32,845 nt of DNA from Burkholderiaceae bacterium (lineage in GTDB: Bacteria; Pseudomonadota; Gammaproteobacteria; Burkholderiales; Burkholderiaceae_C), in assembly GCA_022702125.1 (NCBI GenBank), contig JAKOND010000075.1, positions 1-32,845 on the forward strand, written 5' to 3'. Positions 158 through 31,243 of this stretch are shown here, in pieces (within the stretch, counting starts at the first letter, position 1; the number at the start of each line of letters is the position of its first letter). The notes below the pieces were generated by a model, which did not search any database, was not told where the DNA came from, and worked only from the letters and a program-made list of their open reading frames with translations. A program made the translations under genes and the position numbers.

Positions 158-2074
158 TCATCCGACCCGGAGCGAGCCCGCCGGCTTCGGGACCTTGATG
201 CGCACCTTGGCGCGCTCCTGCAGCAGACGGTAGTACGCCTCGGCCTCGGCGGTGCCCCACCAGTTGGCGAACTGTTCGCGACCCTGCTTCTCCTGGGTGG
301 CGTCCTTGGCGCGCGGCTCGACCTTGTTGAGGCGGACGACAGCGTAACCGTCCTCGCCCAGGTCCGCGCCCGACAGCACCGGCAGCGATGCCGTCGGCAG
401 GCGCATCGCCGCATCGACGATTTCCGGAGCGAACGGCGGCCGCTCGTTGCGCGCAACGACGACCGCCGCGGGCAAGGTGGCCTCGGACGGCTTTTCCTTC
501 CAGGCGGCGAGCTTGGCGGCGCCGTCCTGCTTGGCCAGCGCGAGGGAGCGTTCGGCCACCAGGCGGGCCCGGACCTGCTCGCGCACCTCGTCCAGGCTGG
601 CGGTGCGCGCCGGCGTATGGCGCACCACCCGGCCGGCGGCCAGCTGGCTGGCGCCGATCTCGACCGCGGCGGTGTTGCGCTTCTTCTCGATCGCGTCGGC
701 CGAGAACAGCGCCTGCAGGAACTGCGGGCTGGCCAACGCGCCGGAGGCGTTCGGCGCCGGCGTGCGGGTCACGCCGGTGGCGGTCTGCAGCTTGAGGCGC
801 AGGCGCTCGGCCACCGGCGCGAGCGCGTCGGCCTGCTCGTAGACGCTGTTGCCGAAGTTCTCCGCGACTTCCGCGAAGCGGCGCTGGGCGGCCTGCTGAC
901 GGTACTCGGTTTCGAGTTCGGGGCGGGCGTCCTCGAAGCTGCGCTGCCGGCCGGGCTTGATGTCGGTGAGCTGGATCACGTGGTAGCCGAAATCGGATTC
1001 GACGACGTCGCCGATCTGGCCCTTCTGCATCCCGAAGGCCGCGTCCTCGAAGGGCTTGACCATGGCACCGCGGGCGAAGAAGCCCAGGTCGCCGCCGGAC
1101 GCGGCGGAACCGGGGTCCTGCGAATTCTTGCGCGCCAGCTCGGCGAAGGAGGCGGGGTTGGCGCGGGCCTGCGCCAGCAGCTCGGTCGCGCGCGCCTTCG
1201 CCTTCTCGCGCTCGGCGGCCGGCGCGTCCTTGGATGCGGTGATCAGGATGTGGCTGGCGCGCCGCTCCTCGGCGGTGGTCATGCGGGCCAGGTTCTGGTC
1301 GTAGTAGCTGCGCAGGTCGGCGTCGCTGGCGGTGATCGTGTCGCGGACGGCGGCCGGATCGAGCACGACGTATTCGACGTCGACCTGCTCGGGCAGGCGG
1401 AATGCCTCGGCATGGGACCGGTAGTAGGCTTCCAGGTCCGCATCGGACACTTGGACCTTGGCGGCATAGTCCTTGGGCCGGAAGACGGCGACCTGGATGC
1501 TGCGCCGTTCGAGCAGCGCATCGAGCGTCACATCCGCCGGTGCCGCGAAAGCGATCTCGGTCGTCGCGATGCCGGCCAGCACCTGGCGCGATGCGAGGTC
1601 GCTGCGGATGCGTGCCTCGAACATCTCGGGCGTCATGTTCTGGCGCGCCAGGGCGGCACGGTACTGGTCGATGTCCATCGAACCGTCGGGCCGGCGCAGG
1701 GCCGCGATGCCCGGGTCTTCCTGCAGCCGGCGGGCCAGGGCCGCGTCGCTGGGCGCCAGCAGCGCATCGGAGGCGGCGCTGAGCAGCACGCGTTCGCGCA
1801 CCAGGCGCTCCAATGTGGCGTAGCGCGCCTCGGGCGATTCCAGCAGCCGCGCATCCACCGACGGAGCGTTGGCACGGATGCGCTCGACTTCCGCGGTGTG
1901 CGCCGCGTCCCACTCGGCCCGGGTGATGTCGTGGCCGTCGACGGTGGCGACTGCCTCGCTCTTTTCCGACGAACGCTTGTAGCCATCGATCCCGACCAGG
2001 ACGAAGGACGGAATGATCAGCAAAAACAGCAAGACCATGACAATCTTGGCGTGCTTGCGGACGAATTCAAACAT
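158..2074 (-). CDS. ppiD: PpiD-like periplasmic peptidyl-prolyl isomerase/chaperone
   Basis: The product is a 638-residue inner-membrane-anchored foldase that helps outer-membrane and periplasmic proteins fold. A short cytoplasmic N-terminus (MFEFVRKHAK) is followed by one hydrophobic anchor at about residues 11-31. A long SurA-like helical region comes next. A parvulin domain lies at about 265-365, with the characteristic ASHIL, GGDLGFF and FGYHVIQL segments. The length matches E. coli PpiD (623 residues). A TTG two codons upstream keeps the frame open, but the ATG at 2074 is preferred because GAGAG lies about 8 bases before it and homologues begin MFEF. It lies downstream of hupB as in E. 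coli (lon-hupB-ppiD), but here tRNA-Val and a terminator are inserted between them. Many parvulin domains of PpiD proteins have weak isomerase activity; activity cannot be judged here. Confidence 0.93.
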   Translation of the reverse strand: MFEFVRKHAKIVMVLLFLLIIPSFVLVGIDGYKRSSEKSEAVATVDGHDITRAEWDAAHTAEVERIRANAPSVDARLLESPEARYATLERLVRERVLLSAASDALLAPSDAALARRLQEDPGIAALRRPDGSMDIDQYRAALARQNMTPEMFEARIRSDLASRQVLAGIATTEIAFAAPADVTLDALLERRSIQVAVFRPKDYAAKVQVSDADLEAYYRSHAEAFRLPEQVDVEYVVLDPAAVRDTITASDADLRSYYDQNLARMTTAEERRASHILITASKDAPAAEREKAKARATELLAQARANPASFAELARKNSQDPGSAASGGDLGFFARGAMVKPFEDAAFGMQKGQIGDVVESDFGYHVIQLTDIKPGRQRSFEDARPELETEYRQQAAQRRFAEVAENFGNSVYEQADALAPVAERLRLKLQTATGVTRTPAPNASGALASPQFLQALFSADAIEKKRNTAAVEIGASQLAAGRVVRHTPARTASLDEVREQVRARLVAERSLALAKQDGAAKLAAWKEKPSEATLPAAVVVARNERPPFAPEIVDAAMRLPTASLPVLSGADLGEDGYAVVRLNKVEPRAKDATQEKQGREQFANWWGTAEAEAYYRLLQERAKVRIKVPKPAGSLRVG

Positions 2075-2098
2075 GGGCAATCTCTCGGGCGACGGCGG

Positions 2099-2132
2099 AA
2101 AAAAGAAAAGGCGAACCTGCGTTCGCCTTTTT
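2099..2132 (-). terminator. Intrinsic terminator after tRNA-Val, just upstream of ppiD
   Basis: The stem GGCGAAC with GTTCGCC and a four-base loop lies at 2110-2127. On the minus strand it is followed by TTTTCTTTTTT (2109-2099). The other strand also has a T5 tail, so it may work in both directions. It would end the hupB/tRNA-Val transcript about 25 bases before the ppiD start codon. Confidence 0.85.
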
Positions 2133-2142
2133 CCGGATGGGA

Positions 2143-2218
2143 TGGTGGGTGCTGACGGGCTCGAACCGCCGACCTACGCCGTGTAAAGGCGCTGCTCTAC
2201 CAACTGAGCTAAGCACCC
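2143..2218 (-). tRNA. tRNA-Val (anticodon TAC)
   Basis: The minus strand folds into a full cloverleaf. The acceptor GGGTGCT pairs with AGCACCC, the discriminator is A, and CCA is encoded at 2145-2143. The anticodon loop TTTACAC gives TAC, which is Val. The gene begins only 16 bases after the hupB stop, so it is probably processed from a hupB-tRNA transcript. Confidence 0.96.
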
Positions 2219-2234
2219 CATCGATAAACCTGCC

Positions 2235-2507
2235 TCAGTTCAACGCATCCTTCAATGCCTTGCCTGGACGAAACTTCGGTACTTTAGCAGCCTTGATCTT
2301 AATGGCTTCGCCGGTACGGGGATTCCGGCCGCTGCGGGCGGCGCGTTTGCCGACGCCGAAGGTGCCGAAACCGACCAGCGAGACCGTGCCGCCGCGCTTG
2401 AGCGTGGTCTGGACGGCGCCGATGGTGGATTCGAGGGCGCGTGTGGCGGCGGCCTTGGAGATGTCGGCGTTCTTGGCGATGTGCTCGATGAGTTCGGTCT
2501 TGTTCAC
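2235..2507 (-). CDS. hupB: DNA-binding protein HU-beta
   Basis: The product is a 90-residue nucleoid-associated protein that bends DNA as a dimer. The whole HU fold is present: N-terminal helices beginning [20 protein letters not shown], the beta saddle [16 protein letters not shown], and the DNA-gripping arm [24 protein letters not shown]. The length is that of the family. The start is a GTG at 2507 with GAGGG about 6 bases upstream. The open frame continues 61 codons further back but nothing there resembles HU. The gene is followed at 16 bases by tRNA-Val and then ppiD. A likely -10 box lies about 85 bases upstream of the start. Confidence 0.96.
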
Positions 2508-2589
2508 GAAAAACCCTCGTTCGGAAATGACGGTGCCGGGCCATGCAAGGCGACGCTGCGACCGGCCTACAAGGGGCCGCAGGTCGGCG

Positions 2590-2595
2590 TGTATA
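2590..2595 (-). promoter_or_regulatory. Probable -10 box for hupB
   Basis: The minus strand reads TATACA here, placing the transcription start near 2583 and giving a leader of about 75 bases. The -35 position (near CTCGAT) is poor. A second TAGAAT-like box occurs near 2683 but has no -35 partner either. This is the better of the two by position and match. Confidence 0.4.
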
Positions 2596-2727
2596 GAGCA
2601 CCACCGGGGAAATCGAGCACCCTGCGAAAGGACTGCTCCGACCCGGCGCCACCCGCCCGGGCCTGGACAAGCGGGCGATTCTAGACGCATTTGCCGGGGG
2701 GCACCGGCGGGGCGGGAAGAGAAAATA

Positions 2728-3294
2728 TCAGCGTTTCACCCGGGCGCGGATCTCGGGCAGCGCCTTGCGGAGGTAGTACACCATCGACCATACGGTGAGC
2801 ACCGCCGCGGCCCAGATGAGCACCGAACCCCAGAAGCGGGTGTCGATGCCCCAGAGCACGCCGTTGTAGAGCAGGAACGGGATGGCGACCATCTGCACCG
2901 TGGTCTTGACCTTGCCCAGCATGTGCACCGCCACGCTGCGCGAGGCGCCGATCTGGGCCATCCACTCGCGCAATGCGGAGATGGCGATCTCGCGCCCGAC
3001 GATGATCAGCGCGACGAACACGTCGGCCCGGTGCAGGTGCACCAGCACCAGCAGCGAGGCGCACACCAGGAACTTGTCGGCGACCGGGTCCAGGAAGGCG
3101 CCGAAGGACGAGGTCTGGTCCAGCTTGCGGGCCAGGTAGCCGTCGAGCCAGTCGGTCGCGGCGAAGACCACGAACATCACGGTCGCGATCAGGTTGCGGC
3201 TGGCCGGCTCGATCGGCAGGTAGAAGATCCCCACGATCAGCGGAATCGCGACGATGCGCGTCCAGGTCATGAGGGTCGGAATGGTCAGGAACAT
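2728..3294 (-). CDS. pgsA: CDP-diacylglycerol--glycerol-3-phosphate 3-phosphatidyltransferase
   Basis: This enzyme makes phosphatidylglycerol phosphate, the committed step to phosphatidylglycerol and cardiolipin, in the inner membrane. The 188-residue product contains the full CDP-alcohol phosphotransferase motif D-x2-DG-x2-AR-x8-G-x3-D-x3-D, seen as [10 protein letters not shown] followed by GAFLDPVAD at about residues 65-90. Several hydrophobic helices are present, and the length is close to E. coli PgsA (182). The ATG at 3294 gives [14 protein letters not shown], the usual beginning of beta-proteobacterial homologues. An in-frame ATG at 3318 is possible but has no better ribosome site. It lies 58 bases after uvrC in the same direction, a conserved uvrC-pgsA pairing, so they are probably cotranscribed. 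Confidence 0.95.
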
Positions 3295-3352
3295 GGCGCC
3301 ATTGTGCCGAATCGCCATGCGCCGCCGGCGCCATGCCCCCACCGGCGGCGCA

Positions 3353-5371
3353 TCAGTGCAGCGCCCGGTAGATCTCGCCGGCCAGGTCGGCCGAGATGCC
3401 CTCGACCTGCGCGATGTCCTCGGCGCTGGCGGCGGCCACGCCGCGCACGCCGCCGAAGCGCTGCAGCAGCCGCGCGCGCCGCTTGGGCCCGATGCCGGGG
3501 ATGTCCTCCAGCTTGCTGCCGCCGACACGCACCTTGGCGCGCTGGGCGCGCATGCCGGTGATGGCGAAGCGATGGGCCTCGTCGCGGATCTGGGCGACCA
3601 GCATCAGCGCGGCCGAGTCCCGGCCCAGGTAGACCTTCTCGCGCCCGTCGGCGAAGACCAGTTCCTCCAGCCCGACCTTGCGGCCCTCGCCCTTCTCCAC
3701 CCCGACGATCAGCGACAGGTGCAGGCCGAGTTCGGCGAACACCCCGCGCGCCATCGAGACCTGGCCCTTGCCGCCGTCGACCAGCACCAGGTCCGGCATG
3801 CGCGGCTTGTCGCCGGGCGGGACGGCGCCGTCCCCGTCGCCCGCCTCGGCCGCGGCGCGCGCCGCCTCGGCCACCTTGCTGTAGCGCCGGGTCAGCACCT
3901 GCCGCATCGCGGCGTAGTCGTCGCCGGGAGTGATGCCTTCGATGTTGTAGCGGCGGTACTCGCCGTTCTGCATCTTGTGGTGCTGGAACACCACGCACGA
4001 TGCCTGGGTCGATTCGCCGGCGGTGTGCGAAATGTCGAAGCACTCGATGCGCAATTCGTCGAGCACGTCCATCGGCAGGTCCAGCGCCTCGGCCAGCGCG
4101 CGGGTGCGGGCCTGCTGCGAGCCTTCCTCGGCCAGCAGGCGCGCGAGCTGCAGCTCGGCGTTCTTCTGCGCCATCTCCAGCCAGATGCGGCGCTGCTCGC
4201 GCGGGTTGTGCACCGCGGTCACGCGGGTGCCGGACTGCAGCGCCAGCGCATCGAGCAGGCCGCGCGACACCGGCGCGCTGGTGATCAGCGCCGGCGGCAC
4301 CGGGATGTCCAGGTAGTGCTGGGCGACGAAGGCCTCCAGCACCCGGGTCTCGACCGGAACGCGGACGGATGCCGGCGCCGCAGGCGCGCCGTCCGGCACG
4401 ACGACGGCATCCGGCTCCCCGCCTCCGGACGCCGGGACCTGCGCCGCCGGATCCTCGGGGCTGTCCAGGTCGTCCTCGTCCACCAGCATGGCGGCCGCGT
4501 CCTCGACATGCACCGGGAAGTACGGCCGGTCGCCCAGGTGCCGGCCGCCGCGCACCATCGCCAGGTTGACGCAGGCGCGGCCGCCCTGCACCTTCACCGC
4601 CAGGATGTCCACGTCCTTGTCCGACGCGGTCTCGATGGACTGCTGGTGCAGCACGCGCGACAGCGCGGTCACCTGGTTGCGCAGCTCGGCCGCCTGCTCG
4701 AATTCGAGCTTCTCGGCGTGCACCATCATCTGCGCCTGCAGGGCATCGATCACCTCGCGGGTCTCGCCGCGCAGGAAGCGGCCGGCGTTGCGCACGTCCA
4801 GGCCGTACGCCTCGGGCGAGATCAGGCCGACGCAGGGCGCCGAGCAGCGCTTGATCTGGTAGAGCAGACAGGGCCGGGTCCGGTTGGAGAAGACCGTGTC
4901 CTCGCAGGTGCGCAGGCGGAAGGCCTTCTGCAGCAGCTGGATCGACTCCTTCACCGCCCAGGCGCTGGGGAACGGGCCGAAGTACTGGTGCTTCTTCTCG
5001 ACGCTGCCGCGGTAGTAGGCCACCCGCGGGAATTCGTGCGCGGCGATCTTCAGGTACGGATAGCTCTTGTCGTCGCGGAACAGGATGTTGTAGCGCGGAC
5101 CGAGCTGCTTGATGAGGTTGTTCTCCAGCAGCAGCGCCTCGGCCTCGGACCGCACCACCGTCGTCTCCATCCGGACGATCTTGGTGATCATGTGGCCGAT
5201 GCGGGTGCCGCCGTGGTTCTTCTGGAAATAGCTGGCGACGCGGCGCTTGAGGTTGCGCGCCTTGCCCACGTAGAGCAGGACGCCGGCCGCGTCGAAATAC
5301 CGGTAGACGCCCGGCAGCGCCGGCAGCGCGGCCACCTCGCGGAGCAGTTGTTCTGGATGCACATCGGTCAT
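3353..5371 (-). CDS. uvrC: Excinuclease ABC subunit C
   Basis: UvrC makes the two incisions around a lesion held by UvrB in nucleotide excision repair. In order, the 672-residue product shows an N-terminal GIY-YIG nuclease ([19 protein letters not shown], about 20-38), a Cys cluster with [13 protein letters not shown], and a UVR helix pair binding UvrB ([16 protein letters not shown], about 211-226). These are followed by the RNase H-like 5' nuclease with ECFDISH and [11 protein letters not shown], and a C-terminal helix-hairpin-helix pair ([18 protein letters not shown]). It is longer than E. coli UvrC (610). The extra length comes mostly from two acidic/Pro-Ala-rich insertions at about residues 294-340 and 500-525. 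All catalytic motifs are intact. It is divergent from earP with 116 bases between. Confidence 0.97.
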
Positions 5372-19989: not shown

Positions 19990-21774
19990 ATGATGAGCCC
20001 CCACCCTCTCCCCTCCGATTCCGCCGGTCCGGCTGGCGATGCCAACGGCGCGGCGATCGGGCCGGCGGCCGCAGGCCTGCAGGCGCGCCGGGTCTACCAC
20101 CTGCGGATGCTGGCGACGCCGTTTCTGCTGCTGATCGTCGGCGCGTCGGCCTACCAGCGCAGCCTGTCGCCCTGGGCGCTCGGCCTGCTGACCTTGGCCA
20201 TCGTCCTGTGGCCGGTGCTGGCCAAGGCGCTGCCGCGGTGGCTGGGGCGTCCGACGGCCTGGGAGCAGCGCAACCTGATCGGCGACCATATCCTGGCCGG
20301 CATGACCTGCGCGGTCATCGGCTTCAACCCGCTGCCGTCGGTGCTGCTGATGGCGATGACCGGCATGTCCAGCATGGCCACCGGAGGCACGCTGCTGCTG
20401 CTCAACGGACTGACCTCGAGCGCCCTCGGCGCTTCATTGGCAGTCATGGCCTTCGGCGTGAACTGGTTCCCGGAATCGACCCGCATCGACGTGTTCTGCA
20501 GCCTGCCGCTGCTGCTGGTCTATCCGATCGCCATCAGCCACATCGCCCACCAGGCCCTGCGCCGGCTGGAACGCCGCCGCAGCGAGCTGGAGCACATCAG
20601 CCAGCACGACGGGCTGTCCCGGCTGCTCAACCGGACCGCCTGGGAGAAGCAGGTGCGCGCCGAATTCACCCGTTTCCAGCGCACCCACGAGCCGGTGACG
20701 CTCGTGATGGCCGACCTGGACCATTTCAAGCGCATCAACGACGAGTTTGGGCACGCGGCGGGCGACGAGGTCATCCAGCGCTTCGCCGCGCTCCTGCGCA
20801 AGGGACTGCGCTCCATCGACGTACCGGGGCGCTACGGCGGCGAGGAATTCGGCATCCTGCTGCCGGGCACCGACGCGCAGACCGCGTTGCAGCTGCTGGG
20901 CCGGATGCGCCAGCGGCTGCACGACGAGCCGCTGCTGAAGGACCACGTGGTCACCGCGAGCTTCGGGGCGGTGCAGCTCGACGCCTCCTTCAAGCGGCAC
21001 GGCAACTGGATCCGCCGGGCCGACAAGATGCTCTACGAGGCCAAGCACGGCGGCCGCGACCGCGTCGTGGTCGCCGTCGGCATGCAGGGCTCCGATGCCC
21101 CGGCGGACACCGAGCAGCACCACGAGGACGCGGCCGCGCCGGCGTGGAAATCGCAGGCGGATGCGCCGCAGGTCGCGGCGCCATCGGCCCTGCCGCCGCT
21201 CGACATCGCGGTGGATGCCGAGCGCGCCCAGCTGTCGCTGGCGCTGCTGCGCACTTTCGAGAAAGCGGACATGGCCGTCGGCTTGTTCGATCCGCAGGAC
21301 CGGCTGGTCATGGCCAACGAGGCGCTGCTGCGCTTCTACGGCCCTTCGGCGTTGCAGTCGACCATGCACAGCATCCTGGCGAACCTGGGCGACACCCGGG
21401 GCGCCTCGTCGCAGGCGGGCCGGACGGGCGGCCTGGAGTGGGCCAGCCCGCTGCTGGCACGCCGGCGCACGCTGCAGGTGCAGCGCGTCATCATGGCGAT
21501 GGCGGGCCATGGACTGGTGGAATTCCAGGAAACCCTGACGCCCGATGGCTGGCTGCTCCAGATCGTGGAGCCGGCGGTGGCCAGCCGGCCCGCATCGCCG
21601 CGAGGCGGGACCGTCATCCCGATCTCGGCGGCCCTGGCGGGCCATTCGCTGCGCTCCCAGCCGTCGCACCGCCCCGACAAGGCGGCCGACGACGAGAAGC
21701 CCGCGGCCGCGGGCGAACTCAGCTCTGTGGAGAATTGGTCTCGTCGACTGGCCAGTCGCGGATATAAGCCTTGA
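19990..21774 (+). CDS. Membrane-bound diguanylate cyclase (MASE2-GGDEF-PAS-like)
   Basis: It makes cyclic di-GMP from two GTP. The 594-residue product starts with a MASE2-type membrane sensor (about 30-195, several hydrophobic helices; ARRVYHLRMLATPF, EQRNLIGDHILAG, FNPLPSVLLMAMTGM). A GGDEF domain follows at about 205-365: DGLSRLLNRTAWEK, MADLDHFKRINDEFGH, active site GGEEF at 283-287, and an RSID inhibitory I-site (274-277). It should therefore be active and product-inhibited. After an Ala/Pro-rich linker there is a PAS-like segment at about 405-540 (KADMAVGLFDPQDRLVMANEALLRFYG). A PAS after, rather than before, the GGDEF is unusual. The start is one of two adjacent ATGs. The last 56 bases overlap the convergent CBS gene. 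Confidence 0.9.
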   Translation: MMSPHPLPSDSAGPAGDANGAAIGPAAAGLQARRVYHLRMLATPFLLLIVGASAYQRSLSPWALGLLTLAIVLWPVLAKALPRWLGRPTAWEQRNLIGDHILAGMTCAVIGFNPLPSVLLMAMTGMSSMATGGTLLLLNGLTSSALGASLAVMAFGVNWFPESTRIDVFCSLPLLLVYPIAISHIAHQALRRLERRRSELEHISQHDGLSRLLNRTAWEKQVRAEFTRFQRTHEPVTLVMADLDHFKRINDEFGHAAGDEVIQRFAALLRKGLRSIDVPGRYGGEEFGILLPGTDAQTALQLLGRMRQRLHDEPLLKDHVVTASFGAVQLDASFKRHGNWIRRADKMLYEAKHGGRDRVVVAVGMQGSDAPADTEQHHEDAAAPAWKSQADAPQVAAPSALPPLDIAVDAERAQLSLALLRTFEKADMAVGLFDPQDRLVMANEALLRFYGPSALQSTMHSILANLGDTRGASSQAGRTGGLEWASPLLARRRTLQVQRVIMAMAGHGLVEFQETLTPDGWLLQIVEPAVASRPASPRGGTVIPISAALAGHSLRSQPSHRPDKAADDEKPAAAGELSSVENWSRRLASRGYKP

Positions 21775-22263: not shown

Positions 22264-23613
22264 CTAGGTGTTTGGCTGGATGGGAGGGCGCGGACCCGCA
22301 CTCGGGGCAGGCCGGGCCGGCACGGCCGGCGCACTGTCCAGCACGTCGGACAGCCGCAGCCGGTGCCATCCGGCGTGCTGCCAGACCGCCTGCACCGGCG
22401 CGGCGTCCGGCAGGAGCAGGCGATCCACCAGGGGCGCCAGCGGCAGCGACCGGGGGTCGGCCAGCAGCACGTGGCGGGGCGCGACATCGTCGCTTTCCTC
22501 CTGCAGGCGGCCCACCCACTGGAGCTGGACCAGCGCATCGACCGCCGACTCGACCTGCAGCGGATCGACCCGCAGGCGGCGGTCCAGGTCCTGCAGCGTC
22601 AGTCCCGGACGGACCTGCCGGCGGGCGGCGTGCAGCTGCCGCAGCACTTCCAGAGCCAGTTCGAACTGCCAGCCCGGCGCGCCCGCATGGCGGCCGACGC
22701 CGGCGAGCAGGATCGGCAGGTAGGCGGCCACCACCGCGCCCAGCAGCACGATCAGCCAGGCCACGTAGATCCAGACCAGCAGGATCGGCAGCGTGGCGAA
22801 GGCGCCGTAGAGCACGGAGTAGGTCGGCACCGCGCCGAGGTAGAGGCCGAGCAGCTTCTTGGCCGCCTCCATGCAGACCGCCACGAAGCACCCGCCCGTC
22901 CAGGCGTGGCGCCATTTCACCGGGGTGTTGGGCACGAAGTGGTAGAGCGCGGCCATGCCGCCGGCCAGCAGCAGGAATTCGATCGCGTCCAGCAGCAGCC
23001 GCAAGCCCCCCGGCACCGTCTGGAGCGGGCCGCGCGAATAGCCGACCGCGAGGGAGGTCATGGTCAGGCTCGAACCCAGCACCAGGGGTCCGAGGGTGAG
23101 CGAGGTCCAGTAGACCAGCAGCCGCTGCGCCAGCGGCCGGGGACGCCGCACCCGCCAGATGTTGTTGAGCGTGCGGTCGATGGTCAGGATCAGCGCCAGC
23201 GCGGTCGCCAGCAGCACCGACAGGCCCACCGCGCCCAGGCTGCTGGCCTTGCTCGCGAACTGCGTCAGGTAGCCCAGCACCTGCCGGGCGATGGTGTCGG
23301 GCACCAGGCTGACGATGAGCCAGCGCTCGAGCTGGCGCTGGATCTCGCTGAAGATCGGGAACGCGGTGAACACCGCCAGCGCGACGGTGAAGAGGGGCAC
23401 CAGGGCCACCACCGTGGTGAAGGTCAGGCTGCTGGCGGTCAGGCCCAGGCGGTCCTCCCGGAACCGCTCGGCCAGGGTCTGCGCGGTGATGCGCCAGGGG
23501 AAGCCCGCCGCGCGGTGCCCGAGTCGGCGCCGCGCTGCGCCGCGCACGGCGTTCATGCAGGACTGCAGCCACGGCGGCAGCGGGCCCTGCACGAATGGTT
23601 GAGGCGAAGGCAT
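22264..23613 (-). CDS. YihY/BrkB-family inner-membrane protein
   Basis: The 449-residue product has the YihY/virulence factor BrkB domain at about 45-300: LTASSLTFTTVVALVPLFTV, FPIFSEIQRQLERWLIVSLVP, DRTLNNIWRVRRPRPLAQRLLVYWTSLTLGP, and SVLYGAFATLPILLVWIYVAW, with about six hydrophobic helices. A C-terminal cytoplasmic extension of about 130 residues contains a winged-helix-like part (LTLQDLDRRLRVDPLQVESAVDAL). The family was once called ribonuclease BN in error; its real function is unknown. The ATG at 23613 overlaps head to head with a possible ATG of the DUF2069 gene on the other strand. No ribosome site supports it strongly. Confidence 0.88.
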   Translation of the reverse strand: MPSPQPFVQGPLPPWLQSCMNAVRGAARRRLGHRAAGFPWRITAQTLAERFREDRLGLTASSLTFTTVVALVPLFTVALAVFTAFPIFSEIQRQLERWLIVSLVPDTIARQVLGYLTQFASKASSLGAVGLSVLLATALALILTIDRTLNNIWRVRRPRPLAQRLLVYWTSLTLGPLVLGSSLTMTSLAVGYSRGPLQTVPGGLRLLLDAIEFLLLAGGMAALYHFVPNTPVKWRHAWTGGCFVAVCMEAAKKLLGLYLGAVPTYSVLYGAFATLPILLVWIYVAWLIVLLGAVVAAYLPILLAGVGRHAGAPGWQFELALEVLRQLHAARRQVRPGLTLQDLDRRLRVDPLQVESAVDALVQLQWVGRLQEESDDVAPRHVLLADPRSLPLAPLVDRLLLPDAAPVQAVWQHAGWHRLRLSDVLDSAPAVPARPAPSAGPRPPIQPNT

Positions 23614-24091
23614 GGCCGCTATGATGCCATTTGCCGTGCCGATCGCCCCGCCCTCACCGCCCTCACCCGCTTCCGCCCGGCCGCCCGCCGCCGCGACGGC
23701 CGCGCCGCGGTCGGTCGCCCGGACGCGGGCCCTGGCGGTGGCCAGCCTCTGCGGGCTGATCCTGCTGTCGCTGGCCTGGGAGCTGTGGCTGGCGCCGATC
23801 CGGCCGGGCGGCTCGTGGCTGGCCCTGAAAGCGCTGCCGCTGTGCCTGCCGCTCGCCGGGCTGCTCAAGCACCGCATGTACACCTACCGCTGGGTCAGCC
23901 TGCTGGTCTGGCTCTATTTCACCGAAGGAGTGGTACGCGCCTGGGGCGATCCGGCGCCCGGCCGCTGGCTGGCGCTGGCCGAAGTCGCGCTGTGCCTGCT
24001 GCTGTTCGCCGCCTGCGCGCTGCATGTGCGCCTGCGGCTGGCGCACGGCCGCGCCGGCGCCGCCCGCGCAGCCGCGGCACCGGCGGCCTGA
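23612..24091 (+). CDS. DUF2069 membrane protein
   Basis: This is a small integral membrane protein of unknown function, up to 159 residues. The core (about 38-140) has three to four hydrophobic helices and the family's signature stretches ELWLAPIRPGGSWLALKALP and KHRMYTYRWVSLLVWLYFTEGVVRAW. The ends are Ala/Pro-rich. The first ATG shares bases with the yihY-like start codon on the other strand, so translation more likely begins at ATG 23621 or 23624 or at GTG 23636. A TATGAT sequence at 23620-23625 could instead be a -10 box. The FAD-linked oxidase gene follows 46 bases downstream. Confidence 0.8.
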   Translation: MAAMMPFAVPIAPPSPPSPASARPPAAATAAPRSVARTRALAVASLCGLILLSLAWELWLAPIRPGGSWLALKALPLCLPLAGLLKHRMYTYRWVSLLVWLYFTEGVVRAWGDPAPGRWLALAEVALCLLLFAACALHVRLRLAHGRAGAARAAAAPAA

Positions 24092-24137
24092 ACCGCTCCT
24101 TCGCTTTCCTGACGACGCACCACGCGAGACGAACACC

Positions 24138-25598
24138 ATGACCGCTCCTGCCTCCCCGAACCCCGCCGCCCCCGCCCTGATCGATGCCCTGCGCCGGATC
24201 GTCGGCGACGCCCACGTGCTGACCGATGGCGATTTGTCGGCCTGGGAGCAGGACTGGCGCAAGCGCGAACACGGCAAGGCCCTGGCGGTGGTGCGCCCGG
24301 CCAGCACCCAGGAGGTGGCCGCGGTGGTCCGGGCCTGCGCCGCCGCGGGCGCCCCCATCGTTCCGCAGGGCGGCAACACCGGCCTGGTGGTCGGTTCCAC
24401 GCCGGACGGCTCCGGCACCCAGGTGGTGCTGAGCCTGCAGCGCATGGCCGCCATCCGCCAGATCGACGCCGCCAACATGGCGGTGACGGTCGAGAGCGGA
24501 TGCGTGCTGCAGACGCTGCAGGAGGCCGCCGACCGCGCCGGATACCTGTTCCCGCTGAGCCTGGCGGCCGAGGGCAGTTGCACCATCGGCGGCAACCTGG
24601 CGTCCAACGCCGGCGGCACCCAGGTGCTGCGCTACGGCAACGCGCGCGACCTGTGCCTGGGGGTGGAGGTGGTCAATGCGCAGGGCGAGATCTGGAACGG
24701 CTTGACCGGCCTGCGCAAGGACAACACCGGCTACGACCTGCGCAACCTGTTCGTCGGCAGCGAGGGCACGCTGGGCATCATCACCGCGGCCACGCTCAAG
24801 CTCTACCCGAAGCCGGCGGCCGAGCTCACCGCCTGGGCGGCGGTCGGCTCGATGGAGGACGCGGTCACCCTGCTCGGGCTGGCGCAGCGGCACCTGGGCG
24901 CCAACCTGACCGGCTTCGAGGTCATGGGCCGCTTCGCGCTGGAGCTGGTGGACAAGCACTTCCCGCAGCTGAGGGTGCCCTTCGTCCACGGCACCGCCGA
25001 GGCCGCCCGCCCGGTCTTCGGGGTGCTGCTGCAGAACTCCGACCAGGAATCCGAGGCGCATGCCCGCCACCAGTTCGAGCACCTGCTGGAAACCGCCTTC
25101 GAGCAAGGCTGCGTCGCCGACGCGGTGGTGGCGGAGAACATCGCCCAAGCGCACCAGCTCTGGCACGTTCGCGAGAGCATCCCGCTGGCCCAGGCCGAGG
25201 AAGGCCTCAACATCAAGCACGATGTGTCGATCCCGGTGTCGCGCATCCCGGCCTTCGTCGCCACCACCGACGCCCTGCTGCGCGAACGCATCCCGGGCGT
25301 GCGGCTGGTCAACTTCGGGCACCTGGGCGACGGCAACCTGCACTACAACGTGCAGGCGCCCGCCGGCGGCGATTCGCGCGCTTTCCTCGAAGAGCGCGAG
25401 CACCAGGTGAACGCGCTGGTCTACGAGTCGGTGACCTCCTTCGACGGCTCGATTTCGGCGGAACACGGCGTCGGCTCGTTGAAAGTGCACGAACTGGAGA
25501 TCCACAAGTCGCCGGTCGCGCTGGCGATGATGCGCAACGTCAAGCGCGCGCTGGATCCGCAGAACCTGATGAATCCGGGACGGGTGCTCGCGGTCTGA
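24138..25598 (+). CDS. FAD-linked oxidase, D-2-hydroxyacid dehydrogenase type
   Basis: The 486-residue product belongs to the VAO/PCMH flavoprotein family, next to GlcD and D-2-hydroxyglutarate dehydrogenases. The N-terminal FAD-binding domain (about 45-225) shows PQGGNTGLVVGSTP, SLAAEGSCTIGGNLASNAGG, LRKDNTGYDL and GSEGTLGIITAATLKLYPKP. The C-terminal cap has the metal/substrate signature NFGHLGDGNLHYNV and SISAEHGVGSLK, ending in NPGRVL. It oxidises a D-2-hydroxy acid, passing electrons to an acceptor other than oxygen in most homologues. D-lactate, D-2-hydroxyglutarate and related acids cannot be told apart from sequence alone. The ATG at 24138 is preferred by homology. It is convergent with the receiver gene. 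Confidence 0.9.
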   Translation: MTAPASPNPAAPALIDALRRIVGDAHVLTDGDLSAWEQDWRKREHGKALAVVRPASTQEVAAVVRACAAAGAPIVPQGGNTGLVVGSTPDGSGTQVVLSLQRMAAIRQIDAANMAVTVESGCVLQTLQEAADRAGYLFPLSLAAEGSCTIGGNLASNAGGTQVLRYGNARDLCLGVEVVNAQGEIWNGLTGLRKDNTGYDLRNLFVGSEGTLGIITAATLKLYPKPAAELTAWAAVGSMEDAVTLLGLAQRHLGANLTGFEVMGRFALELVDKHFPQLRVPFVHGTAEAARPVFGVLLQNSDQESEAHARHQFEHLLETAFEQGCVADAVVAENIAQAHQLWHVRESIPLAQAEEGLNIKHDVSIPVSRIPAFVATTDALLRERIPGVRLVNFGHLGDGNLHYNVQAPAGGDSRAFLEEREHQVNALVYESVTSFDGSISAEHGVGSLKVHELEIHKSPVALAMMRNVKRALDPQNLMNPGRVLAV

Positions 25599-25619: not shown

Positions 25620-25637
25620 GCCTGACGCGCGTCAGGC
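25620..25637. repeat. 18-bp perfect palindrome between convergent genes
   Basis: GCCTGACGCGCGTCAGGC is fully self-complementary and spans the last codons and stop of the receiver gene, 21 bases after the oxidase stop. It could form a terminator-type hairpin in either transcript, but no T-run follows on either side. Confidence 0.5.
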
Positions 25638-26003
25638 CTTGGCGTCGCCCGCCGCGAGCAGATCGCGCACCCGGGCGACGATGTCGTCGAACACCACCGG
25701 CTTCATGAAGAACCCGTCGCATAGCGATCCGGGGGCGCCCAGGTCGGGCGCGACCGCGCTGCTCACGATGATCGGGATACCACGGGTCCGCGGATCGGCG
25801 CGCAGGCGCCGGCAAAGTTCGAGGCCGTTCATCACCGGCATCATGAAATCGGTCAGCACCAGATCGGGCTGCTGCTCGGCGACGCGCAGCAGGGCATCCC
25901 GTCCGTTGCGCGCAATGGCCGTCTCGAAGCCTTCGAGCTGGAACAGCACCTCGTACGTGGTCAGGATGTCGAACTCGTCGTCGACCAGCAGCACGAGACT
26001 CAT
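25632..26003 (-). CDS. Stand-alone response regulator receiver protein
   Basis: The 123-residue product is a single CheY-like receiver domain with no output domain. The acidic pocket is Asp8/Asp9, the phospho-acceptor is Asp52 (LVLTDFMMPVMNG), a Ser pair lies in IIVSSAV, and the conserved Lys is in FFMKPVVF. It should be phosphorylated by a histidine kinase encoded elsewhere. Its ATG overlaps the stop of the KaiC-like gene (ATGA), so the two are translationally coupled and probably work in one pathway. An 18-bp palindrome covers its stop codon. Confidence 0.93.
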   Translation of the reverse strand: MSLVLLVDDEFDILTTYEVLFQLEGFETAIARNGRDALLRVAEQQPDLVLTDFMMPVMNGLELCRRLRADPRTRGIPIIVSSAVAPDLGAPGSLCDGFFMKPVVFDDIVARVRDLLAAGDAKA

Positions 26004-27475
26004 AGGTGGGGCGCCTGCGCCATGCCGGTCGCGTTCGGGGCCACGGTCGCGAATCCGGCGGCCGGCCAGGCCAGGGGACGGACGTGCAGGCCCTCTTCGT
26101 CGATGTGCAGTTCCTGGGCCATCGAGTCGTAGTCGCTGTCGCGCATCTTGAGCACCGACAGCAGGCGGCGGCTGGACCCGTCGATCTGCGCGTGGCGCAT
26201 CCACAGGATGTTCTCGAACACCGCAGAGACGTTCTTGAGCGCCATGCCCGGCTGGCTGGCGAACAGCGGGATCTCCTCCGAGCACAGGGTGGTGATGCCA
26301 TCGCACCGCAGGCGGTTGGTCAGGGCGGTGAAGAACAGCACCATGCGCTCGGGATGGATGGAGCTTTCCTTGAAGCCCTCCACGCCGTCGAGGAAGACGC
26401 GCTGCGCGCCCAGTTCCGCCAGCGCATCGAAGAATTGCTGCACCAGCAGGTCGATGGTGAATTCCAGCGCGGGCTGCCACAGGATGCGGAGCCGGCCTTC
26501 GTCGAGGAATGGCTGCAGGTCGGTGCCGATGCTGCGCATCTTGGCGACCAGGCGGTCCGGCGACTCGTAGAAACCGAGGTAGACCGCCGACTCGCCCCGG
26601 CGCAGGCCCTCGACCAGGAAGCTCATGCCGCTGAGCGTCTTGCCCGATCCGGGAGCGCCCAGCAGGCTGGTGGTCGATCCGCGCGCGACTCCGCCCTGCA
26701 GCACGCGGTCGAGGCCCGGGATGCCGAAGGCATGGGTTTCGCCGAACACCCCGGGCTCGACGATCCGGCGCGAGGCGATGGATTCGAGCCTCGGATAGAC
26801 CCGGATGCCGTCGCTGGTGATGGCGAACATGTGGCGGCCGGCCATGTGGTTGGAGGCGCGCAGCTTGTGGACCTCGATCTCGCGGGTGCGGCGCATGCCG
26901 TCGGAGAAGTTGTTGAGCTCGATCAGACCGTCGACCAGGGTGTGCTCCGGATGCTGCTCGTTGCCACTGAGCGGCGCCAGCAGGAAGCAGGTGGTGCGCA
27001 GGCTGCTCACCAGCGCGCTGAGTTCGTGGATGAACTGCGACAGTTCCAGCGGCGAGGCGCTGAACTCGCTGGCGCTGCGGAATCCGTCGATGAACATCAG
27101 CTGCGGTCGGTGGGTCAGCATCGCGCCGGCCATCGCCTCGAAGAAACCGCGCAGGCCCCCTTCCTTGAGCTGCCCGTAGGCGCTGAGGTAGTGCACCCGC
27201 TCGGCCACCAGCGTCTCGTCGTAGAAGGACAGCTCGGTGAGGTGGCTGAGCAGCTTGACGTGGCTCTCGGCGATCAGCGTGACGTAGAGGACCCCGGCTC
27301 CGGCGCGCGCGTGGTGGAAGGCGATCTGGTTGGACAGGATGGTCTTGCCGGCACCCGCCCGACCCTCGATGAGGTAGAGCGAGCCCTCGATGAAACCGCC
27401 GTCGAGGATCTCGTCGAATCCTGGAATGCCGCTGGGCAGGCGAACGATCTTTCGGGGAGGTAGAGATGGGCGCAT
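26000..27475 (-). CDS. KaiC-like two-domain ATPase
   Basis: The 491-residue product has two RecA-fold KaiC domains in tandem. Domain 1 (about 10-240) begins LPSGIPGFDEILDGGF, with Walker A GRAGAGKT at 38-45 and Walker B LMFIDG. Domain 2 (about 245-470) begins FGIPGLDRVLQGGV, with Walker A GAPGSGKT near 272-279, Walker B RVFLDG, and ends VLKMRDSDYDSMAQEL. By eye, the paired catalytic glutamates of clock KaiC are reduced to one in both halves (IAES and FYES). Near the phosphosites only the Ser seems kept (NVSAVFENILW), with Ala for Thr. No kaiA or kaiB is nearby, as in most non-cyanobacterial homologues. The coupled receiver gene suggests a signalling role. The start is ATG at 27475; the ribosome site is weak. 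Confidence 0.88.
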   Translation of the reverse strand: MRPSLPPRKIVRLPSGIPGFDEILDGGFIEGSLYLIEGRAGAGKTILSNQIAFHHARAGAGVLYVTLIAESHVKLLSHLTELSFYDETLVAERVHYLSAYGQLKEGGLRGFFEAMAGAMLTHRPQLMFIDGFRSASEFSASPLELSQFIHELSALVSSLRTTCFLLAPLSGNEQHPEHTLVDGLIELNNFSDGMRRTREIEVHKLRASNHMAGRHMFAITSDGIRVYPRLESIASRRIVEPGVFGETHAFGIPGLDRVLQGGVARGSTTSLLGAPGSGKTLSGMSFLVEGLRRGESAVYLGFYESPDRLVAKMRSIGTDLQPFLDEGRLRILWQPALEFTIDLLVQQFFDALAELGAQRVFLDGVEGFKESSIHPERMVLFFTALTNRLRCDGITTLCSEEIPLFASQPGMALKNVSAVFENILWMRHAQIDGSSRRLLSVLKMRDSDYDSMAQELHIDEEGLHVRPLAWPAAGFATVAPNATGMAQAPHL

Positions 27476-27733: not shown

Positions 27734-30700
27734 ATGGCTGCAGCACGTTCGCCCGGCGGCACCGCCGTCCCCAGTTCGCTGGGCCCCCTGACGCAGACGC
27801 GCCGCCTGCTGCGGCTGCGCACGCCGCTCGGCGCCGACGCGCTGTTCGCCGAGAACGCCGAGATCTGGGAAGGCATCGGCCCGTGCGACGGCCCGGCGCT
27901 GGACGGCGGCGACGATGCGCTCGGCCTCGGCCTCGGCCCCGCGCGCGCCGGCCTGCGCCTGGTGGTGCATGCGCTCGCGGGCGACGCCCGCCTCGACCTC
28001 GGGACCCTCATCGGCCAGCCCGCGCTGGTCGAGCTGCTCTGCCAGGACAGCGCCACCGACCGGCGCCCCTGGCACGGCCACATCGTCGCCGCGGCCCTGG
28101 TGGGCAGCGACGGCGGCCTGGCACGCTACCGCCTCGTCGTCGAGCCCTGGCTCGCCGTCCTCGCCCACACCGTGGACGCCTGGTGCTTCCAGGACCGGAG
28201 CGTGCCGCAGATCCTCGACGAGCTCTTCGGCGGTTACCAGCGCGCCGGCCGGGACCGGGGGCATGACCCGGGCCGCCTCGCCCCCGCCTGGCGCTGGGAC
28301 CTGGCCGACGCCCGCGCCTATCCGAAGCGCAGCCTGTGCGTCCAGTACCACGAGAGCGACCTCGACTTCGCCCTGCGCCTGATGCGCGAGGAAGGCCTCG
28401 TCTGCTGGTGGGAACACGACGGCGATGCCGACAGCCCGGGCCTCGGCCGCCACACCCTCGTCATCGCCGACCACAACGGCGCCTTCGCCCCCAACCCCCA
28501 GCCCACCGTCCGCTTCACCGCCAGCGACCACACCCTCGGCGAAGACAGCCTGACGCGCTGGACCGACATCGCCCGCCTCACCAGCGCCCGCGTCGCCCTG
28601 CGCAGCCGCGACCACCGCAGCCTAGACGACCGCCCGGTCGAGGCGCCCGTCGGCGCCGCCAGCACCGCTGGCCCGGGGGCCCCAGCCACGCCCCTGCCCG
28701 CATGCGCCATCGTCGACGTCCCCGGCGCCTACGCCTACGCGGACCGCGCCCAGGGCGAGCGCCTAGCCGCCCGCCAGGCCGAGGCGCTCGCCGCCGTACG
28801 CAGCCGCGCCCTGGCCCGCGGCCCCTGGCGCCGCGCCCAGGCCGGCACCACCTTCACGCTGGCCGACCACCCGCGCCACGACGGCCGGGATGCCGCCCGC
28901 GACACCTTCGTCGTGCTCTCGGCGCAGCACCGCGCCCGCAACGACATCGCCGCCGACGAACGCGCCCGCCTCGGAGGCGGAACAGCCGCCCCCGGACGCT
29001 CCCCCGGCCCGGCCGGCCGGGCCGCGGGCACCACCGCGCGCGACGACGACGCCCCGCTGCACGAAGCCGCCCTGCTGATGCAGCCGCTGGCCGTGCCGGT
29101 GCGCATGGGCCGCCAGGACCCCTCGCCCCACGGCGTGGCGGCCGACGGCGACTTCGGCGTGTTCAACCGGGTGGACGACCGCACCCGCGTCGCCACCGCC
29201 TCCGCGGCCCCCCCGTCGCTCTTCGACCGCCACGCCGTCGCGTCGCTCGCGCAACCCGAGGTGCGCCTCGCTCCCCGCCCGACGGTGCGCGGCACCCAGA
29301 CCGCCCTCGTCGTCGGCGACGGACACGCGGCAGGCGGCGCCGACCCGCACACCGACCGCGACGGTCGGGTGCGGGTGCAGTTCCACTGGCAGCGCGGCAG
29401 CCGCGCGAGCCACCGCCTGGACCATCCCCAGGACAGCCCGGACGACAACGCCCCGGCCTCGGCCGCCAGCGGCCCCTGGGTGCGCGTGGGCCAGAGCCTG
29501 GCCGGCGCCAACTTCGGCGCGGTCTTCACCCCGCGCGTCGGCCAGGAGGTGCTGGTCGACTTCCTCGGCGGCGACATCGACCGCCCGGTCATCGTCGGCG
29601 CCGTCTACAACGGCCGGGGCGCGCCCGATGCGCAGGGCAACCGCATCGCCGCCGGAGCAGCCGGCGCCCGCGGCAGCGCCCCCGCCTGGTTCGCCGGCAG
29701 CCGGAGAGCGGAGCCCCCCGGAGGGCACCACGAGGGCCCCCGCGAAGGCGGCCACGCGGACGATCCCGAAGGCCACCAGCACCCGGCCGTGCTGCTCGGC
29801 CACCGGAGCCAGGAGCTCGGCCACGGCGCCCCGGGGCATGGCGGCGCCAGCCAGCTCGTCTTCGACGACAGCGCCGCGGGCCACCGCATCGAACTTTCCA
29901 CCACGCCCGGCCCCGGTGCCACCACACCCGGCTCCGGTACGCAAGCCACGCGGCTGCAGCTCGGCGCGCTGCGGCACCAGCAGGGCAACCAGCGCCTGGC
30001 GCCGCGCGGCCACGGGCTCGAACTCGCCACCGACGACCACGGCGCGTTGCGCGCCGGCGCCGGCCTCCTCCTCAGCGCGCATGCCCAGCCGCCCAGCACC
30101 CAGGGCGGCGGCCAGCAACTCGACACCCGGGCGGCGCAGCAGGTGCTGCAGGCCGCGCGAGACCTGGCGCACACCTTGGCGGACTCCGCCCAGGCGCACC
30201 ACGCCCGGCTGGGCGGGGAGTCACCGGTCGCAGGCGCCGCTCCGGCTCAGGGCATGGACAGGAACCAGGGCCAGCAGTTGCCGGCCGAACACGGCCTGCA
30301 GGCCCTCGCCGAGAGCCTCGCCGCGACGGGCTTCGGGCCGGGCGCCGATGCACCTTCCGACGCAGGAGTCGTGGCGGGAGCCGACCAGGATGCCCCTGCC
30401 CCCACCGCAGGCGGCCTCGGCAGCGTGCCCGCCTGGGGCCGACCCGACCTGGTGCTGGCCGCTCCCGCCGGCATCGGACTGTTCACCCCTGCGGCCGCCC
30501 TGCTGGCCGCCGGCACCCACCTTACCCTGGGCGCAGGCCAGGACCTACTGGCCGTGGCGCAAGGTCACCACGCGAGCGTCGCCAAGGACGGCGTGGTGCT
30601 CTACACCCACGGCACCCCCGGCCGGGCCGCCGATCCCGCACGGTCCGAGGCCGAGACCGGCATCGCCCTGCATGCCGCGAGCGGCAGCGTGCATGCGTCG

Positions 30701-31243
30701 AGCAACACCGGTGCGACGCGCCTGACGGCTCGCGATGCGGTCGAGGTGACGAGCACGCAGGCGGGTGTCCTGGTGGCCTCGCCGCAGCGGATCAGGCTGA
30801 GCGCGGCGGGGGCGGCCCTCGAGATCGGTGCGGGCGGCATCACGGTCAAGGCGCCGGGGGCGGTGAAGTTCAAGGCTTCGATGAAGAACTTGACGGGAGC
30901 GGCCCGCGCCGCCGCTCCCGGCCTGCGGCTCCCTGTCAGCGAATTCGGGACGCAGGAGGTCTACAGCCAGAAAGTCGATCTGATGAACTTCATCGGCGTC
31001 GACGCCGAGCATGGAAACGCCTACGCCCAGGTGCCTTACACCGTGCGCGACGCGCAGGGCCATGTCGTCGCGCAAGGCACTACCAGCCTCACGGGCGAGA
31101 CGGAGCGCCTCTACACCAAGACGCAAGAAGCACTGCATCTGTATCTGGGCGAAGGCGAATGGCAGGTCTTCGCCGAAGGCACCGGTTCTCCACCCGGCGT
31201 TCCGGACGACGACATTCCGCATACCCCTGCGAGCGCATCATGA
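27734..31243 (+). CDS. vgrG: Type VI secretion spike protein VgrG with C-terminal extension
   Basis: VgrG trimers form the puncturing tip of the T6SS and carry effectors. The 1169-residue product has the gp27-like base (about 20-400; LLRLRTPLGADALF, YHESDLDFALRLMREEGLVCWWEH) and the gp5-like OB fold (about 520-635; TDRDGRVRVQFHWQRG, GANFGAVFTPRVGQEVLVDF, DRPVIVGAVYNG). A DUF2345 region (about 905-1055) follows, with the repetitive beta-helix-like IALHAASGSVHASS. The end (about 1065-1165) is a further beta-rich domain (QVPYTVRDAQGHVVAQGTTS) resembling transthyretin-like adaptor domains, not an enzyme. GGAGG lies 8 bases before the ATG. The stop overlaps the start of the next ORF (ATGA). It is larger than typical VgrG, partly through Pro/Gly-rich linkers, and very GC-rich. 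No other T6SS genes are in the window. Confidence 0.94.
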   Translation: MAAARSPGGTAVPSSLGPLTQTRRLLRLRTPLGADALFAENAEIWEGIGPCDGPALDGGDDALGLGLGPARAGLRLVVHALAGDARLDLGTLIGQPALVELLCQDSATDRRPWHGHIVAAALVGSDGGLARYRLVVEPWLAVLAHTVDAWCFQDRSVPQILDELFGGYQRAGRDRGHDPGRLAPAWRWDLADARAYPKRSLCVQYHESDLDFALRLMREEGLVCWWEHDGDADSPGLGRHTLVIADHNGAFAPNPQPTVRFTASDHTLGEDSLTRWTDIARLTSARVALRSRDHRSLDDRPVEAPVGAASTAGPGAPATPLPACAIVDVPGAYAYADRAQGERLAARQAEALAAVRSRALARGPWRRAQAGTTFTLADHPRHDGRDAARDTFVVLSAQHRARNDIAADERARLGGGTAAPGRSPGPAGRAAGTTARDDDAPLHEAALLMQPLAVPVRMGRQDPSPHGVAADGDFGVFNRVDDRTRVATASAAPPSLFDRHAVASLAQPEVRLAPRPTVRGTQTALVVGDGHAAGGADPHTDRDGRVRVQFHWQRGSRASHRLDHPQDSPDDNAPASAASGPWVRVGQSLAGANFGAVFTPRVGQEVLVDFLGGDIDRPVIVGAVYNGRGAPDAQGNRIAAGAAGARGSAPAWFAGSRRAEPPGGHHEGPREGGHADDPEGHQHPAVLLGHRSQELGHGAPGHGGASQLVFDDSAAGHRIELSTTPGPGATTPGSGTQATRLQLGALRHQQGNQRLAPRGHGLELATDDHGALRAGAGLLLSAHAQPPSTQGGGQQLDTRAAQQVLQAARDLAHTLADSAQAHHARLGGESPVAGAAPAQGMDRNQGQQLPAEHGLQALAESLAATGFGPGADAPSDAGVVAGADQDAPAPTAGGLGSVPAWGRPDLVLAAPAGIGLFTPAAALLAAGTHLTLGAGQDLLAVAQGHHASVAKDGVVLYTHGTPGRAADPARSEAETGIALHAASGSVHASSNTGATRLTARDAVEVTSTQAGVLVASPQRIRLSAAGAALEIGAGGITVKAPGAVKFKASMKNLTGAARAAAPGLRLPVSEFGTQEVYSQKVDLMNFIGVDAEHGNAYAQVPYTVRDAQGHVVAQGTTSLTGETERLYTKTQEALHLYLGEGEWQVFAEGTGSPPGVPDDDIPHTPASAS

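Follow-up and report, generated by a model that had tools for sequence, protein, structure and literature searches.

The 32,845-nucleotide stretch of DNA analyzed here (the window) is contig JAKOND010000075.1 of assembly GCA_022702125.1 (Burkholderiaceae bacterium), and all coordinates refer to its forward strand. On the minus strand, it carries a two-gene unit in which a KaiC-like double-domain ATPase (P0001, 491 amino acids [aa]) is directly followed by a single-domain response regulator (P0002, 123 aa). Judging from alignment, the KaiC-like protein has retained its ATP-binding and metal-site residues and has lost both general bases of clock KaiC. With a probability of roughly 0.5, we read the pair as a non-clock unit in which an ATP-binding KaiC ring is coupled to a kinase-driven receiver, with the signal passing from receiver to KaiC. 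This reading is based on gene structure, residues, conservation, a clade recovered in a tree, co-variation of the two proteins, and a recurrent upstream kinase.

Beyond the cyanobacteria, KaiC has widespread homologues, most of which are without a known mechanism. The clade described here provides a sharp, testable case, with a KaiC devoid of catalytic bases tied to a receiver with complete phosphochemistry in each of the members counted; it is relevant to the relation between signaling ATPase and clock, and such a small two- or three-gene system could be reconstituted.

A preliminary description of the window had correctly placed the pair at positions 25632 to 27475, with an ATGA junction, leaving the strand unstated; the 4-base overlap is, by itself, unremarkable. 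The features of the unit are as follows.

26000..27475, minus strand: KaiC-like double-domain ATPase P0001, 491 aa (ATG at 27475, TGA at 26002-26000)
25632..26003, minus strand: single-domain response regulator P0002 (receiver only), 123 aa (ATG at 26003)
26000..26003, minus strand: ATGA overlap of receiver ATG and KaiC TGA (from the sequence)
27341..27364, minus strand: CI Walker A, GRAGAGKT, residues 38-45 (K44 in 67/67 members)
27266..27271, minus strand: CI A69-E70 at the KaiC E77-E78 position, first Glu absent (by alignment)
26636..26659, minus strand: CII Walker A, GAPGSGKT, residues 273-280 (K279 in 67/67 members)
26564..26569, minus strand: CII Y303-E304 at the KaiC E318-E319 position, first Glu absent (by alignment)
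26225..26227, minus strand: S417 at the KaiC phosphosite S431 position, followed by A418 at the T432 position (by alignment)
25848..25850, minus strand: receiver phosphoacceptor Asp52 (Asp in 67/67 members)

Fold and catalytic residues of the window KaiC

P0001 matches PF06745 (KaiC) in two stretches (E value, 3.2e-64), and its AlphaFold2 model (predicted local distance difference test [pLDDT] score, 86.2; predicted template modeling [pTM] score, 0.81) has a KaiC fold along the whole length, with a best Foldseek match to KaiC at an E value of 1.4e-41 and a Z score of 36.5 (3.5 Å across 464 residues) against 2gbl_D. Like clock KaiC of Synechococcus elongatus, it has the two-domain fold, the Walker A and B motifs, and the Lys/Arg residues that contact the ATP of the next subunit, whereas it differs from that protein in having no equivalent of E77 or E318 and no Thr432, in a genome without a KaiB match. 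As far as the available excerpts of the respective papers go, E318 of clock KaiC is the kinase base (E318A is without phosphoryl transfer), E77 activates water in CI, and Mg is coordinated by E78 and E319 (PMC2777353), while paired catalytic glutamates (EE) in both CI and CII are found in all cyanobacterial KaiC subgroups (PMC5520375).

In P0001, both Walker A sites are intact (K44 and K279). In CI, E77 is replaced (A69) and E78 is kept (E70); in CII, E318 is replaced (Y303) and E319 is kept (E304); and at the phosphosite, Ser is kept (S431 to S417) and Thr is lost (T432 to A418). CII and the phosphosite were compared with PDB KaiC chains (gfyes versus feES-type motifs and nvsavf versus histit, respectively), and CI was compared with a control set of five KaiB-linked KaiCs encoded by members of the window's own bacterial family. 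All five controls have FEE where P0001, at the same ungapped place, has IAES, and therefore, together with the CII comparison, each half has lost its first Glu and retained the second. The controls themselves have E-E in CII in only two cases, with D-S in the other three, and S-T or S-S at the phosphosite in all five. The residue pattern that had been proposed by eye in the preliminary description (two intact Walker A sites, one of two adjacent glutamates per half, and Ser but not Thr at the phosphosite) thus holds, and a displacement of the missing glutamates to shifted positions is ruled out.

The NCBIfam models for clock KaiC score far under their cut-offs (TIGR02655, 108.0 of 546.25 bits; NF006799, 197.9 of 408 bits). 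The claim that there is no kaiB was confirmed at the level of the genome, in which PF07689 had no matches while the Synechococcus elongatus control was positive; given the completeness of 96.16%, it is possible that a kaiB gene was overlooked. Altogether, the window protein shares with clock KaiC the two KaiC domains with Walker A sites and departs from it in EE pairs, in the two adjacent phosphosites, in kaiB, and in the NCBIfam scores. The earlier proposal of a non-clock KaiC signaling module with a phosphorylated receiver as its output or input fits with the absence of kaiB, the lost acids, the low NCBIfam scores, and the conserved pair.

These same data bear on the idea of a KaiB-less residual timer or hourglass, which we consider very improbable. 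The KaiC fold throughout P0001 would agree with it, and the genome paper of Ramlibacter tataouinensis put forward a KaiB-free hourglass for another KaiC of Ramlibacter (PLoS One 2011; PMC3164672). On the other hand, the genome has no KaiB match, P0001 has no second phosphosite, and there are no catalytic bases; moreover, in the excerpts available, the Ramlibacter authors argue that a KaiC that cannot phosphorylate two residues is probably incapable of keeping up cyclic timing (PMC3164672). They name Rta_35460 as one such protein, which we set beside the window KaiC by description only.

P0002, in turn, matches PF00072 (Response_reg; E value, 1.3e-19) and no other Pfam domain. Its catalytic set is complete (D8 and D9, D52, S82, and K101), and it has no output domain, making it a single-domain response regulator.

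Conservation across receiver-linked KaiCs

Relatives were gathered by similarity to P0001 from genome contigs (17 loci), from the genome's own family (200 genomes), order (300 genomes), and phylum (398 genomes), from the alphaproteobacterial family of a Microvirga genome, G200 (119 and 397 genomes), and from plasmids. All residue counts refer to 67 distinct members, including the window (42 from the first rounds plus 28 later ones, minus 3 repeats). Left out were loci at contig ends (L032, L067, and L079), members of another KaiC type (L085, L086, L182, and L183), repeats of L040-L042 (L163-L165), and L181, in which the KaiC frame appears shifted approximately two-thirds along, with the downstream receiver still there. 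L096-L100 were used for neighbor analysis only, outside the residue counts.

A receiver is located directly downstream of KaiC in all 67 distinct complete members, with 3 to 83 bases between the KaiC stop and the start of the receiver domain or an overlap of up to 3 to 4 bases. Fixed in every member are K44, K279, D130, D363, K204, R206, K443, and R445, as well as the metal-site Glu in CI; the corresponding CII residue is Glu in 65 members and Asp in 2. Glu is found at neither general-base position in any member (E77, 0/67; E318, 0/67), with Asp at the E318 position in six. At the S431 position, 54 members have Ser, 2 have Thr, and 11 have another residue (Tyr in one), and the T432 position is never Thr and is Ser in 30 of the 67. 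The receivers invariably have Asp9, Asp52, and Lys101, Asp or Glu at position 8, and Ser or Thr at position 82. Hence, the residue pattern previously described by eye is a fixed trait of the receiver-linked KaiC group, and the joint fixation of ATP-site residues and loss of both first glutamates in 67 members is more than chance. Of the two partners, it is the receiver in which phosphorylation chemistry is more strictly conserved.

Phylogeny and co-variation

A tree of 87 KaiCs was built with a quick method and rooted at the midpoint; it includes 42 of the 67 members, the other 25 having been placed in the group on sequence similarity and motif content. For every row, the receiver or KaiB label was verified, while the C295-type label (named after the contig carrying the genome's second KaiC, see below) and the third-type label were given by sequence, with the neighbor checked at 15 and 11 loci, respectively. 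All 42 receiver-linked KaiCs form one clade (Shimodaira-Hasegawa-like approximate likelihood ratio test support, 99). Outside it are 25 C295-type, 15 third-type, and 5 KaiB-linked KaiCs, among which the joining of KaiB-type and C295-type rows carries a long-branch warning. The closest relatives of P0001 are found in two genomes of the order (50 to 51%) and on Caballeronia megaplasmids (51 to 53%).

A subclade of eight KaiCs labeled recB (L012-L018 and L020) is nested within the receiver-linked clade. None of these has Ser at the phosphosite (one has Thr) and their CII motif is degenerate, and all eight keep both Walker A sites and a complete receiver chemistry.

Distances among KaiCs and among their receivers are strongly correlated, both for the 42 pairs (Mantel r, 0.874) and for the 34 pairs labeled recA alone (r, 0.881), with none of 2,000 permutations as high in either case; therefore, the two genes have largely traveled together. 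On the basis of this co-variation and the fixed adjacency, we rejected the possibility that the receiver is an ordinary orphan unlinked to KaiC.

The third KaiC type (L019, L021-L031, L033, L085, and L086) has LGEP as its CI motif and, in CII, a motif resembling FEQRP in which another residue takes the place of the metal-site Glu. Its phosphosite is Ala in all 15 sequences, and a histidine kinase was located downstream in 7 of the 11 loci checked.

Upstream kinases and the direction of signaling

A histidine kinase was scored as upstream when it was encoded on the same strand and ended at most 400 bases upstream of kaiC, or overlapped it as called. Such a kinase was found in 15 of 47 complete loci and in 16 of 25 further distinct loci (16 of 28 when the three repeats are counted), i.e., 31 of 72. 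In the G200 family, the count is 15 of 18 loci, the three without being repeats of Microvirga records, and the 15 with a kinase (L166-L180) all have a kinase-KaiC-receiver unit. A search with a kinase profile found no histidine kinase within the window. The recurrent upstream kinase favors a route in which phosphate reaches the receiver from a kinase, with the donor acting in trans at the window locus.

In the mechanism that we prefer, the KaiC-like protein would bind ATP in both halves, probably as a hexameric ring, and, because both general bases of clock KaiC are absent, the ring would be slow in ATP hydrolysis and a poor autokinase. The receiver would be a working phosphoswitch, phosphorylated on Asp52 by a histidine kinase that is the product of the upstream gene in many relatives and would be supplied in trans at the window. 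Once phosphorylated, the receiver might dock on the KaiC ring and alter what the ring binds. Receivers draw their phosphate from phospho-His or from small donors and are not known to use phospho-Ser, and it was on this chemistry that we set aside direct phosphorylation of the receiver by KaiC.

The opposite direction is less probable. Here, the signal would enter through KaiC and leave through the receiver: energy or redox state would be sensed by the ATP-bound ring, which would control phosphorylation from kinase to receiver, with the freely diffusing receiver carrying the signal. Clock KaiC acts this way on SasA and RpaA. Both the gene order (kinase-KaiC-receiver) and a receiver without an output domain are in line with this view, as are the kinases themselves: of nine that were scanned, two (L056, 296 aa; L094, 275 aa) consist of HisKA and HATPase_c only, without a sensor domain, and 14 of the 15 kinases of L166-L180 are just 261 to 305 aa long as called, which leaves room for sensing by another protein. 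However, the other seven scanned kinases carry a PAS domain of their own, two of them also a GAF domain.

A third explanation, which we regard as unlikely, is that KaiC is an autophosphorylating Ser switch, like KaiC2 of Methylorubrum (Methylobacterium) extorquens, and that the receiver tunes its phosphorylation or dephosphorylation. In the available excerpts on strain AM1, KaiC2, from the kaiC2-kaiR2 cluster (Iguchi et al. 2018), is reported to be phosphorylated in vivo on the conserved Ser426, which is needed for plant colonization, S426A failing to restore it (PMC8069551), and to be a negative regulator of temperature-dependent UV resistance (PMC8069551, PMC12573494). Like the window KaiC, KaiC2 has a single conserved phosphosite Ser and is part of a two-gene cluster, its own function being in non-clock stress; AM1 also has a kaiC1-kaiB2-kaiB1-kaiR1 cluster, unlike the window's genome, which is without a kaiB match. 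The Ser found in 54 of the 67 members would support such a switch. Against it, Glu is absent from the kinase-base position throughout the group (Asp in six members), and all eight recB members have a receiver and yet no Ser. Furthermore, KaiC2 is likened to the window protein by description only. No checked member of the G200 family (397 genomes searched) has a start codon that would give Ser426, and only L184, from the phylum sample, could place Ser at position 426, with a TTG start.

Several observations also weigh against our preferred receiver-to-KaiC reading. The retention of Ser in most members suggests that in these KaiC itself is also phosphorylated, and if KaiC2, with its phosphorylated and required Ser426, belongs to the clade, then KaiC phosphorylation matters. 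Binding between KaiC and the receiver is something that we infer, and since a complete chemistry is usual for receivers, it speaks for use and not for direction. There is no kinase in cis at the window, and 41 of 72 loci are without one just upstream. Finally, KaiB is present in 4 of 13 pair-bearing genomes of the family and in 2 of 8 others, one of which has a 51% relative, and therefore a KaiB-free genome is no rule for the pair. The earlier no-clock claim thus stands for the window's own genome and fails as a generalization.

Relation to described kaiC contexts

The kaiC-receiver arrangement was already described in 2011 and resembles kaiC2-kaiR2 of M. extorquens. The R. tataouinensis genome paper, in its available excerpts, defines three kaiC contexts, in the third of which a gene encoding a single-domain receiver often comes after kaiC, and the KaiC has one conserved phosphosite or none, with exceptions named (PMC3164672). 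The window agrees with this description in its gene order and in its single phosphosite, S417. Moreover, like the window's genome, that of R. tataouinensis is without kaiB and encodes two KaiCs, with a specific histidine kinase after one of the two (PMC3164672). While the third context was presented as a less conserved arrangement (PMC3164672), the receiver-linked KaiCs in our tree form one clade in which both first glutamates are lost. In a limited search of the open-access literature, we found no statement that both general bases are lost across the group or that the phosphosites of KaiC and receiver are asymmetric. The present analysis adds the fixed pattern of catalytic residues, this asymmetry of the phosphosites, and a putative pseudo-receiver on the kinase that accompanies the genome's second KaiC.

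A second KaiC and its putative pseudo-receiver kinase

That second KaiC is encoded on contig C295 (L007, approximately 201-3466, minus strand) and is followed by a hybrid kinase, of which the first approximately 135 residues have no Pfam family match at an E value of 0.01. A profile of 14 such kinase N-termini, picked by a motif anchor, was compared with a profile of 42 solo receivers and matched it with a probability of 97.1 (E value, 6.2e-11; 119 columns), versus at most 1.8 across 20 column-shuffled versions and 0.2 for a KaiB control profile of 10 rows. When used individually, 8 of the 14 N-termini matched the solo-receiver profile (E values, 6.5e-6 to 0.008 at a search size of 1,000). By eye, the acid pair is gone, the phosphoacceptor Asp is Glu in 13 of the 14 (Asp in L035), and Lys is Arg in all 14. 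The N-terminus of the C295 kinase therefore looks like a pseudo-receiver that is not recognized by Pfam. The KaiB control led us to reject a KaiB-like domain at this place, although a KaiB-like fold is still compatible with the data. CI residues were not counted for C295-type KaiCs, whose CI columns are misaligned by a gap.

The excerpts available from the 2011 paper note a weak similarity of the N-terminal region of KaiC-linked kinases to receivers, SasA, and KaiB (PMC3164672), and pseudo-receivers are known in KaiA and CikA (PMC12632262). Like the window pair, the pair of KaiC and hybrid kinase (the second context of PMC3164672) would join a KaiC to a receiver-fold partner; it differs in that the partner domain is without phosphoacceptor chemistry and fused to a kinase and in that the KaiC belongs to a different group. 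The pseudo-receiver in the C295-type kinases suggested to us that KaiC rings outside the clock may typically pair with receiver-fold domains. In a tentative and, in our judgment, rather doubtful generalization, such domains would be the general docking partners of proteobacterial non-clock KaiC rings, taking the place that KaiB and the thioredoxin-like domain of SasA have in the clock, with an intact, phosphorylatable receiver in the present clade and a pseudo-receiver, behaving as though fixed in an active-like state, in the other KaiC type. The state variable would then be receiver phosphorylation in place of the KaiC phosphorylation cycle, and KaiC would be a catalytically quiet ATP ring serving as effector or scaffold.

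Distribution

The pair was found in 13 of 200 genomes of the family (own genome included; one is a contig-end fragment), in at least 6 of 300 genomes of the order (own genome included; 8 hits, 2 of another KaiC type), in at least 14 of 398 genomes of the phylum, and in at least 25 of 397 genomes of the G200 family (27 hits, 2 of another type), where the latter three are lower bounds, since searches at an E value of 1e-60 may miss weaker members. The distribution is thus patchy, and the pair is not general across Burkholderiales: the conservation that the preliminary description had suggested checking in this order applies to the linkage of receiver to KaiC and not to the presence of the pair. 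Among plasmids, 284 records had a match, and a receiver was found downstream in all nine that were opened. The best-scoring plasmid matches sit on large replicons of alpha- and betaproteobacteria, and carriage on such replicons may be a cause of the patchiness. On one of the plasmids, pRPC2 of Rhizobium sp. BG4 (L100), a KaiC-kinase pair adjoins a KaiC-receiver pair.

Within the family, C295-type KaiCs (here, 460 bits or more) occur in 9 of the 13 genomes with the pair versus 16 of 187 others (Fisher's P, 9e-7), and KaiB occurs in 4 of 13 versus 7 of 187 (P, 0.003), both values being uncorrected for genome size and ancestry. Accordingly, genomes with the pair tend to have other KaiC systems as well, including clock-type ones.

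Surroundings of the unit

The kaiC-receiver unit is isolated in the window, with a convergent gene for an FAD-linked oxidase (24024-25598, plus strand) on one side and a divergent VgrG-type gene (27734-31243, plus strand) on the other. The product of the latter contains Phage_GPD, Phage_base_V, T6SS_Vgr, and DUF2345 domains. Also nearby are genes for a MASE2-GGDEF diguanylate cyclase (19990-21774, plus strand), a BrkB-family membrane protein (22264-23883, minus strand), and a DUF2069 protein (23612-24091, plus strand).

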